Source of the DNA: Halosegnis marinus
Lineage (GTDB): Archaea > Halobacteriota > Halobacteria > Halobacteriales > Haloarculaceae
Assembly (NCBI RefSeq): GCF_029338355.1
Contig: NZ_CP119802.1
Span: 372,001 to 436,000, forward strand
Length of the DNA: 64,000 nucleotides
Direction: 5' to 3'
Positions 34,362 through 37,827 of this stretch are shown in pieces (position 1 is the stretch's first letter; each line of letters begins with the position of its first letter). The translations under genes were made by a program, and so were the position numbers. Under the pieces are notes generated by a model. That model had not been told where the DNA came from. It worked only from the letters and a program-made list of their open reading frames with translations, and ran no database searches.

Positions 34362-34685
34362 CTACGAGTACTCCCGCCAGCGGTGCCCGCACTCGGTACA
34401 CTTGAAGAAGCGCGTCGGGGGCTCGTCGGCGCTCCCGGTCTGTTTGATGGTGTACCACGCCTTCCGGGTGCCGCACTCGTCGCACTTCACGTCCTCGGCC
34501 GTGGGTTTCCCCTCGAAGTTCGCGTCCTCCGTCGTCTCTATCACGTCGCTGTCGTCCTGCGCCTCGGTAGAGGTGTACTGCTCCGCGAGGTCGGTGTCCT
34601 TCGCGACGGTCGCACCGCACGACGAACAGACCATCTCCTCGCCGTCCGCGTGCATCATCGAGCCGCACTCGTCGCAGAACTGCAT
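34362..34685 (-). CDS. tfs: Transcription elongation/cleavage factor TFS
   Basis: Restarts backtracked RNA polymerase by stimulating transcript cleavage (archaeal TFIIS). A 107-residue protein: N-terminal ribbon CDECG and CSSCG; C-terminal ribbon CDECGTRKAWYTIKQTGSADEP then CTECGHRW. The expected acidic cleavage pair (usually DE) is present as SADEPPTRFFKC. It is encoded alone, convergent with gdhA across a 206-nt spacer. Confidence 0.93.
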   Translation of the reverse strand: MQFCDECGSMMHADGEEMVCSSCGATVAKDTDLAEQYTSTEAQDDSDVIETTEDANFEGKPTAEDVKCDECGTRKAWYTIKQTGSADEPPTRFFKCTECGHRWREYS

Positions 34686-34747: not shown

Positions 34748-35230
34748 TTACTCGTTGGGCGCGCCGACGCCGCGGTCGGCGACGACCGGGCAGTTCGACA
34801 CGCGGAAGTGCGTCACGTCGGTGAGTTCGTGGATGGTCGTGCCGGGGTTCTCACACGCGACGTCCGGCGGGTCCGTGAAGTACTGACACCGCTCGCAGTA
34901 GCTCCGTTTCGGGACGACGACGCCCTCCGCGGCGCGTTCGATTTCGGGGTCGCTCTCCACGTCGAGGTCCGTCGCCTCGGTCGTGTCCTCGTCGCCGCCG
35001 AGCGTCTCGAACACGTCGTCGTCGAGCGCCGCGAGGTCCGCGTCCATCTCGACGAAGGGGTCGTCGTCGCCGGCGTCGGGAAGGGAGTCGAACGGGTCGT
35101 CCGGGTCCGCGGGCGTGCCGGGGCTCCCGGAGCCGTACGGCTCCGTCTCGATGGATACCTCCGGCGCGTCGTCGTCGACCTCGTCGACGGCCGACTCGAC
35201 GTCGTCCGGCGTGTCCTCGCGGTCGGTCAC
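34748..35230 (-). CDS. Very acidic protein with C-terminal Cys cluster, 160 aa
   Basis: Residues 1-100 are dominated by Asp, Glu, Pro and Gly (low-complexity, probably disordered). The C-terminal part has four Cys (YCERCQYF, VACENPG, SNCPVV) that could hold a zinc ion or Fe-S cluster. It starts with GTG at 35230, overlapping the upstream stop (GTGA), and is co-translated with the coiled-coil protein. No named family. Confidence 0.72.
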   Translation of the reverse strand: MTDREDTPDDVESAVDEVDDDAPEVSIETEPYGSGSPGTPADPDDPFDSLPDAGDDDPFVEMDADLAALDDDVFETLGGDEDTTEATDLDVESDPEIERAAEGVVVPKRSYCERCQYFTDPPDVACENPGTTIHELTDVTHFRVSNCPVVADRGVGAPNE

Positions 35231-35931
35231 TGCCCCTCCTCCCCGACGAGCGAGGGGGTCGAGAAGAAGCCGCTGCGGCCGGTCACGTCGTGGAACGCCG
35301 CGTCGCAGTGGGGACACGTCGCCTCGGAGAGCAGGCCGATATCGACCGACTCGCCGCAGGCGGCGCAGTTCGCCTCGCGGAAGCCGCGGGTGACGGCGAC
35401 CCGCCGGAGCTCCTCCAGCCGGGCGTCGTCGCCGTCGTCGTCGCCCGCGGCGCGCTGGATGCGGACGACCGCGGCGGCGACCTGCCGGACGCGGCCCTGC
35501 ACGCGCTCGACGGCCTCGCCGTTCCCCTCCACCTCGGTTTCGAGCCCCTCCACATCGGCCTGGAGGTCCGAGAGGGTGGTTGCGAGCCCGGCGATCTCGT
35601 CCTCCAGCGCGTCGAGCCGGTCGAGTTCGGCGTGGCCGTGGTCGGCGGGCGCCTTCCGGTCCGTCTCCTTCTTGACCTGGATGACGCGGTCGCGCACGTC
35701 GTCGACCTTCTCGTCGAGGTCCGACTCCAACGCATCGACGCGCGCGGCGAGCTCGTCGACGCCGCCGACCTCCTCGTCCGCCGCCAGCGCGAGCCGCGCC
35801 GCTTCGAGCAGGCGCTGGAGCAGTTGTTCGCGGCCGAGCCCCTGTTCCGTCGCCTGCTCCGACAGCCACGCGTCGAGGTCGGGCGGCAGGTCCACGGACA
35901 GCGGCTCCCCCTCCGACTGTTCGGTGGCCAT
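35227..35931 (-). CDS. Coiled-coil protein with C-terminal zinc ribbon, 234 aa
   Basis: After a short N-terminal segment resembling a ribbon-helix-helix (VDLPPDLDAWLSEQ), residues about 55-165 form a long heptad coiled coil (ALESDLDEKVDDV..., LETEVEGNGEAVERV), and the end is a zinc ribbon (CAACGE, CPHCDA). It may form a scaffold or DNA-bound structural protein. The gene has a TATA box at 35956-35964, 29 nt from its ATG, and is followed by an acidic Cys protein in the same operon. Function unknown. Confidence 0.75.
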   Translation of the reverse strand: MATEQSEGEPLSVDLPPDLDAWLSEQATEQGLGREQLLQRLLEAARLALAADEEVGGVDELAARVDALESDLDEKVDDVRDRVIQVKKETDRKAPADHGHAELDRLDALEDEIAGLATTLSDLQADVEGLETEVEGNGEAVERVQGRVRQVAAAVVRIQRAAGDDDGDDARLEELRRVAVTRGFREANCAACGESVDIGLLSEATCPHCDAAFHDVTGRSGFFSTPSLVGEEGQ

Positions 35932-35955
35932 TATGCACTACTTACCGACGGAGAT

Positions 35956-35964
35956 TCTATAAAC
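35956..35964 (-). promoter_or_regulatory. TATA box for the 35931-34748 operon
   Basis: On the minus strand this reads GTTTATAGA, centred 29 nt upstream of the ATG at 35931; predicted leaderless. Confidence 0.65.
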
Positions 35965-35980
35965 GTTGGCCCCAGGGCGC

Positions 35981-36817
35981 TCAGCGTATCTTCCGCACGT
36001 CGCTGATGTCGAAGCCGGCCTCGCCGATCTCCGTCTCGAACTGGACGATGTCCTCGTCCTCTATCTGCGAGAGGACGCCGCGGAACTCCCGGACGACGAG
36101 CGTCCGGGCGCGCGTCGAGCCGCCCGACTCCCACTCGAACAGGAAGGTGCCGTCGCACGCGTCGATGAGCTGGCCGTGGCGCTCGTCCGTCAGCGTCTCG
36201 TGGTTCAACAGCACGAGCAGCAGCCCGCCCCACTCGTGGGCGGCGCGCGCCATCCCCTTCAGGAGCTTCGGGATGTCCGACCACGCGAGGTCCTCGCCCG
36301 AGGCGCTGATGAGGTCGGTGAGCGAGTCGATGACGACGAGGCTGTCGGCGGCGTGCGCCGAGAGCACGTCGCCGAGGGCCTCGGGAACGCTGGTGCGGTC
36401 CTCCTGGCCCCCGAGGTCGGCGATGGTCGTCGTCCGCGCGGAGTACCAGTCGCGCGGCACCGGCGAGATGCGGAAGTACTCCGGCGAGAGGTCGTGAAAG
36501 GTCATCGCGTCGGCGACGGCGTCGGCCATCTCCTCGTCCATCACGAGCTCTATCTCGCGGCGCAGTCGCTCCCCCTCGGCGGTGAAGGAGACGTAGTGGA
36601 CGTCCGGGGCGGTGGCCGCGCCCTCCGGCACGGCGCCGTAGTAGAGGTCAAACAGGTCAGGCTCGGCGTCCGCGAGCGCGTTCATCACCGCGGACGTGTA
36701 CATGAACTCCCGCGCGCCGGCACCCGCCTCGCCCGAGAGCAGGACGAGGCTCCCCGGCGGGGCACCACCGTCGATGGTCGTGTCCAGCCGCCGGATGCCG
36801 AACGGGATTCGCTCCAT
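35981..36817 (-). CDS. RecA/KaiC-like protein with degenerate Walker A
   Basis: A 278-residue RecA-superfamily protein of the haloarchaeal 'HTR-like' type. The start (RIPFGIRRLDTTIDGGAPPGS) fits KaiC/RadA-like folds, but the P-loop is GEAGAGAR (29-36): the essential Lys is A35 and the Thr/Ser is R36. Walker B is LVVIDSLTDL. It probably binds nucleotide weakly or not at all, and may act as a regulatory or scaffold KaiC. It is transcribed in the same direction as the 35931 operon, 49 nt upstream of it. Confidence 0.85.
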   Translation of the reverse strand: MERIPFGIRRLDTTIDGGAPPGSLVLLSGEAGAGAREFMYTSAVMNALADAEPDLFDLYYGAVPEGAATAPDVHYVSFTAEGERLRREIELVMDEEMADAVADAMTFHDLSPEYFRISPVPRDWYSARTTTIADLGGQEDRTSVPEALGDVLSAHAADSLVVIDSLTDLISASGEDLAWSDIPKLLKGMARAAHEWGGLLLVLLNHETLTDERHGQLIDACDGTFLFEWESGGSTRARTLVVREFRGVLSQIEDEDIVQFETEIGEAGFDISDVRKIR

Positions 36818-36864
36818 ACGCTCCCGTGTGCCGCACCGGACTTAAAACACACCCGGCGGCGGAC

Positions 36865-37827
36865 TCACTCGACTCGCGCGCCCGCCGACGCCAGCGGGAC
36901 GACCCGGACCTCCCCGCCCACGCCGGCGACGTCAAGGGCGGCCTCCCCCGCCTCGCGCGCAGCACCGGCGCGGTCGGCGCTCGTCAGCCCGTACACGGCC
37001 GGGCCCCACGACGACTGCCCGACGCCGACGACGCCCGGTTCGCCCCCGAGCGCCTCCACGAGTTCGCCCGCCGGCGGCCGATAGACGCCGCCCTGCGCGT
37101 CCGCGTACCACGCGCCGTTGAGCCGGCCGAACTCCCCGACCGCCCGCCCGAACGCGTCGAGGTCGCCCGTCGCCGCCGCGGGGAGCAGCCGTCGCGCGAG
37201 GATGCCCGCCGCCTCGTCGGCGACGGTCGGGTCGGCCCGCTCCACGACCGCGCGCATCGACGCGTCCTCCTGCTCGCCGGAGCGCCCGGTCGGAGCCTCG
37301 GGGAGAACGAGCAGCGCGCGCCACTCCTCGGGCAGGTCGTGGCGCGCGGTCACCGGCGGCACCGTCCACTCGCCGTCCGCGGGCGCGGCCGTCGTGAACC
37401 GCTCCGTCGGGTGGCCGGCGTCCACGACGAAGCCGCCGCCCTCGAACGTCGCCACGCCCACGCCCGAGCGACCACCGCGACCGAGCGCCGGGGCGCGCTC
37501 GCGGACCCGCGGCGCCCGGTCGTAGGCCCCGGCTACCGCCGCGAGCGTCGCGAGCGCGACCTGTGTCCCCGACCCGAGGCCGACGTGGCGCGGCAGGGTC
37601 TCCTCGACCGCGATTCGCGCCCCGGGCACGTCCAGCAGGTCGCAGACCCGCGACGCGTAGTCGGCGACGAGCGGGTCGTCGCAGACGACGGCGTCGGCTC
37701 GCTCGGCGTCGAGCGTCACCCGCGGCGCCGCGAGGCCGACCCCGACCCCGCCGTAGAGGCGCTCGCGCGCCAGCGAGAGGTTCAGGAAGCCGACGTGGAG
37801 CCGGCCCCCCGCGGAGACGCGTGTCAT
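36865..37827 (-). CDS. Beta-ribofuranosylaminobenzene 5'-phosphate synthase-like protein
   Basis: A 320-residue GHMP-kinase-fold protein related to beta-RFAP synthase, the first dedicated step of tetrahydromethanopterin biosynthesis. Visible motifs are GGRLHVGFLNLS, the GHMP motif VGLGSGTQVALATLAA and the QSSWGPAVYGLT segment. Haloarchaea use folate-type cofactors, so its true substrate is open. The ATG at 37827 gives the standard start. The upstream 483-nt spacer separates it from deoxyhypusine synthase. Confidence 0.85.
   Translation of the reverse strand: MTRVSAGGRLHVGFLNLSLARERLYGGVGVGLAAPRVTLDAERADAVVCDDPLVADYASRVCDLLDVPGARIAVEETLPRHVGLGSGTQVALATLAAVAGAYDRAPRVRERAPALGRGGRSGVGVATFEGGGFVVDAGHPTERFTTAAPADGEWTVPPVTARHDLPEEWRALLVLPEAPTGRSGEQEDASMRAVVERADPTVADEAAGILARRLLPAAATGDLDAFGRAVGEFGRLNGAWYADAQGGVYRPPAGELVEALGGEPGVVGVGQSSWGPAVYGLTSADRAGAAREAGEAALDVAGVGGEVRVVPLASAGARVE

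Follow-up and report, generated by a model that had tools for sequence, protein, structure and literature searches.

The window analysed here, a stretch of 64,000 nucleotides of Halosegnis marinus (contig NZ_CP119802.1, positions 372,001 to 436,000 of the forward strand; positions below are those of the window unless a locus is named), contains on its minus strand three neighbouring open reading frames, KAI, CC, and CYS, the first of which is considered here together with CirB, a homologue encoded elsewhere in the genome. KAI (35981..36817, 278 amino acids, start ATG) is a KaiC-family protein without a P-loop, as identified from its reading frame, profile, and fold. It is followed after 49 bp by CC (35227..35931, 234 amino acids, start ATG), with a probable ribbon-helix-helix-like N-terminus, a coiled coil, and a C-terminal zinc ribbon, and then by CYS (34748..35230, 160 amino acids, start GTG), an acidic protein with a C-terminal four-Cys domain. 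The CirB-type gene is situated at G000:C1:641006-641677, 232 kb from KAI. An earlier note, made from the letters of the window alone, had correctly given the three open reading frames, their coordinates, and the sequence GEAGAGAR, without Lys and Thr/Ser, in place of a P-loop, and had proposed that the three proteins form a structural or regulatory complex no longer dependent on ATP hydrolysis.

The degenerate Walker A motif GEAGAGAR comprises residues 29-36 of KAI (36710..36733, minus strand). Compared to the expected GxxGxGKT, the Lys is replaced by Ala and the Thr/Ser by Arg, such that the pattern GxxGxGK[TS] does not match. The catalytic Glu pair of KaiC is lost as well, its position being occupied by Thr79-Ala80 (36578..36583, minus strand), with SFTA standing opposite SLEE in a profile alignment with the live partner CirB, whereas the Walker B Asp164 (36326..36328, minus strand) is kept. 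Altogether 84 distinct KAI orthologues from the class (the haloarchaea) were read, 82 of which cover the loop. None of these 82 possesses Lys at position 35 (Ala in 57, Ser in 18, Gly in 7), 79 possess Arg at position 36, and 80 retain the Walker B Asp; the two residues at the site of the Glu pair are mostly Thr and, directly after it, Ala, Asp, or Ser. Concerning other classes, a KAI profile was run against 196 genomes sampled from the phylum (E 1e-8) and matched 84 of them, 28 class members and 56 others, and 20 loci were taken from those 56 genomes. Lys is absent from all 20, being replaced by Asn (6), Ser (5), Gly (5), Ala (2), Met (1), or His (1), such that the survey of orthologues suggested in the earlier note encountered no normal P-loop. 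In a maximum-likelihood tree of 48 rows, the P-loop-less sequences of haloarchaea and of other classes form one clade (support 100/99), separate from CirB-type proteins, from ArlH, and from two further KaiC-like proteins. A loss local to one lineage is ruled out by the absence of Lys across the class and other classes; the loss of the P-loop predates the haloarchaea.

By sequence, KAI is only distantly recognizable as a homologue of KaiC: it scores 29.7 bits against PF06745 (KaiC; gathering cut-off 26.6), its best NCBIfam match, ArlH (NF052589; 39.7 bits, E 4e-10), stays below the cut-off of 215, and TIGR03880 (KaiC_arch_3, cut-off 249.45 bits) is absent among its NCBIfam matches at E 1 or better. 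The predicted fold is clear. The AlphaFold2 model (predicted local distance difference test, pLDDT, 81) resembles a designed KaiC (Z 23.1, root-mean-square deviation 2.5, 211 aligned residues), PH0284 (Z 22.8), and FlaH/ArlH (Z 22.3); the comparison was also carried out by Foldseek. With KaiC homology and ruined ATPase motifs, KAI has the sequence features by which an inactivated KaiC domain (iKaiC) is recognized.

A class-wide search with the KAI protein of the window as single query (E 1e-5) found KAI in 318 of 391 genomes, two of which (G156, G159) hold solely a paralogue about 32% identical, so that 316 genomes with true KAI remain. Full-length orthologues within the class are around 51-79% identical to the window protein (76% in Halosegnis rubeus), and 40% in the families f5 and f11. 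A profile search applied to ten genomes without KAI returned no orthologue, the matches being one paralogue and two stretches of 40 residues (E 7e-4). In three genomes the copy is broken or deleted (G283, which has a KAI without its middle at locus L116, G340, and G386). Decay or frameshift of the family as a whole is ruled out by open frames and strong conservation, and this conservation points to a function under selection that makes no use of a canonical ATPase site. The paralogue of G156 and G159 belongs to a second P-loop-less KaiC-like family, found in G165, G159, G016, G288, and G041 (L079-L083), which is about 30% identical to KAI, has the loop GAPDAG or GASDAG, nests within the KAI clade, and is the sole member found in G156 and G159. 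In two genomes of genus g46 (G066, G232; L087, L088), about 75 residues are inserted in KAI, and no CC adjoins it.

In all 20 loci outside the class, the gene following KAI in the same direction encodes a second KaiC-like protein of around 230-240 amino acids. Its profile scores are 277-403 bits (134.6 in L147), and its P-loop is intact in 19 loci, the exception again being L147. In eight of the 20 loci, KAI and partner share a stop-start overlap of 4 bp when the first ATG is taken as start. The partner in L134, the one scanned individually, belongs to TIGR03880 (312.8 bits); KAI of the same locus matches Pfam PAXNEB/Elp4 below cut-off (E 2.5e-4). The P-loop of L147 (G527) is degenerate in both proteins, reading TEPGAGGPEF in KAI and GETGTGRT in the partner.

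The haloarchaeal counterpart of this partner is identified as CirB by its matching NAD kinase-like neighbour and by published primers. A divergent NAD kinase-like neighbour is stated for Haloferax cirB (PMC3941300), and such a gene adjoins the haloarchaeal partner gene on the opposite strand in 15 of 20 loci. The published cirB primers for quantitative PCR fit the TIGR03880 gene about 0.5 kb apart in three genomes of genus g34, which we infer to be Haloferax, with no mismatch in the forward and one in the reverse primer, and with one mismatch in each in two more g34 genomes, out of 41 loci scanned; other genera, too, fit the forward primer on its own. The P-loop GxxGxGKT is intact in CirB at all 20 haloarchaeal loci, and the alignment has the Glu pair kept. 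In 21 genomes compared, 110 kb or more separate KAI from CirB, or the two lie on different contigs. Two divergent haloarchaeal lineages, G021 (f5) and G218 (f11), still have both genes side by side, with neither CC nor CYS found, an arrangement that looks like the ancestral state. Haloarchaeal CirB (L172-L191) carries an apparent long acidic low-complexity N-terminal extension, judged from putative starts, which most partners outside the class are without.

In the H. marinus genome, both halves of the pair adjoin pterin-pathway genes. KAI is preceded by a gene of the beta-RFAP synthase family (36865..37827, minus strand; TIGR00144, 141.5 bits, cut-off 113.5), and CirB adjoins the NAD kinase-like gene and the GTP cyclohydrolase gene MptA (L172, 3777-5567). 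The best NCBIfam NAD kinase score in this genome is 131.5 bits, below the cut-off of 326; MptA, next after the NAD kinase-like gene, reaches 408.6 bits (cut-off 220).

Although KAI and CirB are mostly unlinked in haloarchaea, they occur in the same genomes. CirB, counted when scoring above the curated TIGR03880 cut-off, was sought in all 75 genomes without KAI and in 78 of the 316 with it, and is present in 76 of the latter and in four of the former (Fisher p 6e-36, uncorrected for ancestry). The two genomes with KAI and without CirB are the g46 genomes, where KAI is divergent and carries the insertion, which looks like drift after loss of the partner. Both states, presence and absence of the two genes, exist within each of the genera g10, g19, g22, g40, and g56, which indicates that KAI and CirB changed together several times without being neighbours.

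The distributions of CC and CYS are nearly the same as that of KAI. Among the 391 class genomes (thresholds E 1e-4 for CYS, E 1e-6 for CC, and E 1e-40 for ArlH as control), 311 hold KAI together with CYS, 5 have KAI without CYS, 3 have CYS without KAI, and 72 have neither, such that the co-occurrence which the earlier note had put up for checking is borne out; the corresponding numbers are 307, 9, 5, and 70 for CC, and 267, 49, 28, and 47 for ArlH. Genus g22 has three genomes in which 37-83 kb separate KAI from CYS and the two still co-occur, and three others (G014, G314, G317) that are without both, a weak CC-like match remaining. In the loci outside the class neither CC nor CYS was seen, there being just two matches to the CC profile (E 0.009 and 0.024). 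CC and CYS are haloarchaeal additions, and as they are missing from some genomes that bear the pair, they are not essential to it.

CC probably is more than the coiled-coil zinc-ribbon protein of the earlier note. All four Cys of its zinc ribbon (Cys189/192/206/209; 35305..35367, minus strand) are invariant in 15 aligned sequences, and in the model a pair of helices like a ribbon-helix-helix monomer is followed by the long coiled coil and the ribbon. The ribbon-helix-helix-like part is predicted for residues 11-54 (35770..35901, minus strand; CopG 1b01, probability 0.94, TMt 0.82, E 1.0), and many of the structural matches listed belong to the ribbon-helix-helix class (CopG, CdbA, AmrZ, MatP, Arc), all at E 0.7 or more. 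Between two long helices, residues 78-100 (35632-35700) form a conserved stretch, EDVRxRVxQVKRExDxKAPADHxH, in which Arg82, His98, and His100 are invariant in the same 15 sequences. At E 1, CYS matches nothing in Pfam or NCBIfam; its conserved Cys domain, seen by alignment, covers approximately residues 105-153 (34772..34918, minus strand), and four Cys are invariant in 16 aligned tail domains. In the fragmented genome G283 (L116), the CC and CYS profiles match one open reading frame of 267 amino acids without the CC zinc ribbon, representing a fusion, decay, or an assembly fault.

On the minus strand, the reading order is the beta-RFAP synthase family gene, KAI, CC, CYS, and TFS (transcription factor S; 34362..34685, minus strand; TIGR01384, 74.5 bits, cut-off 64.75), the latter being a conserved neighbour. 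Across 54 loci of at least 7 kb (window included, one known duplicate excluded), CC is found directly downstream of KAI in 41, CYS in 44, TFS in 41, and all three in 37, and the beta-RFAP synthase family gene lies upstream in 29. Neither these counts nor the survey of the P-loop refute the earlier note by the tests it had set, and the neighbourhood is conserved, yet not fixed. Six loci from four genera are rearranged (G123 and G172 of f6; G276, G219, and G334 of g22; G074 of g35), all with the break between KAI and CC, and with CC, CYS, and TFS remaining linked. No notable repeats were found at the locus (mostly GC-rich, about 70-85% alike).

Concerning expression, CC and CYS join in the overlap GTGA (35227..35230, minus strand), as had been proposed; GTGA is found at the CC stop in 7 of 11 relatives and ATGA in two more, the CC stop having been read and the CYS starts being unverified individually. 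Given this overlap, the two are probably co-translated. The three genes do not form a fixed operon, since KAI and CC have separate TATA-like boxes and are parted in the six rearranged loci. TTTTAA is situated 25-30 bp upstream of the KAI start (36842..36847, minus strand; noted by eye in this sequence alone), and TTTATA begins 32 bp upstream of the CC start (35958..35963, minus strand). Counted across loci, a TATA-like element lies 30-33 bp upstream of CC (window -25 to -36) in 24 of 35, compared to a mean of 2.9 and a maximum of 10 in shuffled sequences and to 1, 5, and 1 of 35 in neighbouring windows of the same width; the pattern was picked after viewing 25 upstream sequences, such that the contrast is somewhat flattered. 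With boxes at both KAI and CC, one three-gene transcript is not needed, and leaderless transcripts from separate KAI and CC promoters are likely from these motifs.

The loss of Lys and its age, the adjacency to a live homologue in other classes, and the co-occurrence with CirB, CC, and CYS lead us to consider it probable, though by no means certain, that KAI and CirB are an ancient pair of KaiC-family proteins in which KAI is catalytically dead and CirB live, the two most likely being assembled together. A protein that keeps the fold and Walker B, loses the Lys, and is paired for long with a live homologue suggests a role without catalysis in a mixed assembly, as subunit or regulator. KAI would either share one ring with CirB or sit on a ring of CirB as its face or cap, and would contribute structure and contacts without turning over ATP, whereas CirB would bind and hydrolyse it. 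As haloarchaeal accessories, CC may carry the signal to DNA, and CYS may serve as an acidic four-Cys zinc adaptor. The independence from ATP hydrolysis put forward in the earlier note finds no support: KAI tracks an intact ATPase, and ATP turnover probably enters through CirB, the main partner, which lies outside the three genes then considered. Haloferax volcanii survives the deletion of cirB, and the cir genes studied then lose their rhythm in light-dark cycles (PMC3941300), and the CirB level rises in conditioned medium (PMC12240190). As CirB is reported to be needed for rhythmic cir expression and to rise in conditioned medium, a regulatory role is likely, and KAI is best read as a pseudo-ATPase that serves CirB as subunit or regulator, with a predicted DNA-binding output.

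Several points weigh against this reading. The tree is midpoint-rooted, and ArlH constitutes a long branch in it. Shared ancestry inflates the p value for KAI and CirB, and the control ArlH also correlates with KAI, with an odds ratio of 9 as compared to 1493 for CYS. Four genomes without KAI keep CirB (G367, G382, G377, G121); completeness is 88% in G367 and G382, and CYS is found in G367, G377, and G121, such that KAI may be absent merely from the assembly. CC and CYS are both absent from G021, G218, and genus g81, and CC from G375, and none of the ribbon-helix-helix matches of CC reaches E 0.001. The co-occurrence could also reflect a shared pathway instead of a complex.

Among other explanations, the one that survives best, and which we regard as a real though lesser possibility, assigns KAI and CirB to the cytoplasmic side of a type IV pilus machine, where they would be comparable to ArlH in the archaellum and act on a VirB11-like ATPase and TadC (PilB3-PilC3 type). 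In 13 of the 20 loci outside the class, the pair is divergent from genes for a type II/IV secretion ATPase (T2SSE) and a T2SSF/TadC platform, identified by Pfam in three proteins and by profile in the remainder. Co-transcription with VirB11/TadC in Methanomicrobia is considered possible for two KaiC families, arCOG01172 and arCOG01173 (PMC4858521). The best NCBIfam match of KAI and its close fold to FlaH point in the same direction, and PilB3_N gave no match in two of three genomes without KAI and a marginal one in the third (genomes without KAI alone being examined). In 147 haloarchaeal loci around KAI, CC-CYS, or CirB, however, the ATPase and platform profiles have no match at E 1e-5, which leaves a pilus role in haloarchaea without support from the neighbourhood. 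A link of KAI to the archaellum is ruled out, as the distribution of ArlH does not follow that of KAI, with KAI lacking ArlH in 49 genomes and ArlH lacking KAI in 28.

The self-contained, ATP-independent complex of KAI, CC, and CYS envisaged in the earlier note has in its favour the co-occurrence of KAI with both other proteins, the conserved order, and the overlap of CC and CYS, but KAI also tracks CirB and predates both CC and CYS, which have moved away from it together with TFS in the six rearranged loci; we therefore hold it to be improbable. We are just as doubtful about a KAI whose altered site still binds nucleotide, making it a slow ATPase or a nucleotide sensor, with Arg36 and Asp164 replacing Lys and Thr. 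The conservation of the loop glycines, Arg36, Phe38, and Asp164 within the class, and of Phe38 and Asp164 in all 20 loci outside it, exceeds the needs of a relic, yet neither Lys, Thr/Ser, nor the Glu pair remains, and Arg36 is found in just 7 of the 20. Co-variation of Arg36 and Asp164 as a salt bridge in place of Mg-ATP found no support, since Asp164 stays where Arg36 changes (L085, L086), and position 36 varies outside the class while Asp164 does not. A transcription-linked function with TFS, instead of KaiC signalling, would fit the linkage of CC, CYS, and TFS in the rearranged loci, but is the least probable of these explanations, as the occurrence of CC and CYS follows that of KAI and the two adjoin it in two loci (L089, L097) with no TFS nearby. 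TFS is expected in all archaea.

Compared to known systems, the proposed pair of KAI and CirB shows similarities and differences. CirB (TIGR03880, KaiC_arch_3) of H. volcanii shares the KaiC-family fold, its relatives adjoin KAI in other classes, and it occurs in the same haloarchaeal genomes, but it has GxxGxGKT and the Glu pair, and KAI neither. ArlH/FlaH is likewise a KaiC-like protein of a single domain and the same fold, tied to a secretion ATPase, but keeps its P-loop (GDYGAGKS in one sequence read), and KAI neither reaches the ArlH cut-off nor follows the archaellum. Cyanobacterial KaiC, with the same fold in CI and CII, consists of two fused live domains, whereas KAI corresponds to one dead domain. 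In the Elongator complex, Elp4-6 are not known to have a working P-loop. Elp4-Elp5-Elp6 provide a precedent, as RecA/KaiC-like folds form a heterohexameric ring there (PMC9634574); Elongator is a eukaryotic tRNA-binding complex, and no orthology with KAI is claimed. Dead KaiC-like domains are already known as a class, and the term iKaiC and the idea of a KaiC fold with a ruined ATPase site have been published, but for domains in multidomain response regulators and HalOD1 proteins (PMC5847659), whereas KAI has a single domain and is paired with CirB. In the literature searched on KaiC-like proteins, CirB, and iKaiC, which does not cover the 2017 mBio survey (Makarova) and Chatterjee 2024, no mention was found of a pairing of CirB with a P-loop-less protein, of its phylum-wide age, or of the accessories CC and CYS.

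KaiC-like ATPases have been proposed as archaeal signalling hubs, and CirB has so far been studied as a lone gene. Going beyond the pair itself, and quite tentatively, one may suppose for the archaea of this phylum a split, asymmetric KaiC of a live CirB and an obligately dead KAI, the two-chain counterpart of two-domain KaiC, dating back to the ancestor that haloarchaea share with their relatives in other classes and retained ever since. Its ancestral neighbourhood, in at least many relatives, would have been a pilus operon, and in haloarchaea CC and CYS would have rewired it into a transcriptional output that may carry the light-dark and quorum responses of CirB. The predicted dead partner and the two accessory proteins constitute a concrete candidate for a CirB complex, testable in a genetic model, and if the proposal is true, it shows how a pseudo-ATPase persists for a very long time within a live/dead pair.

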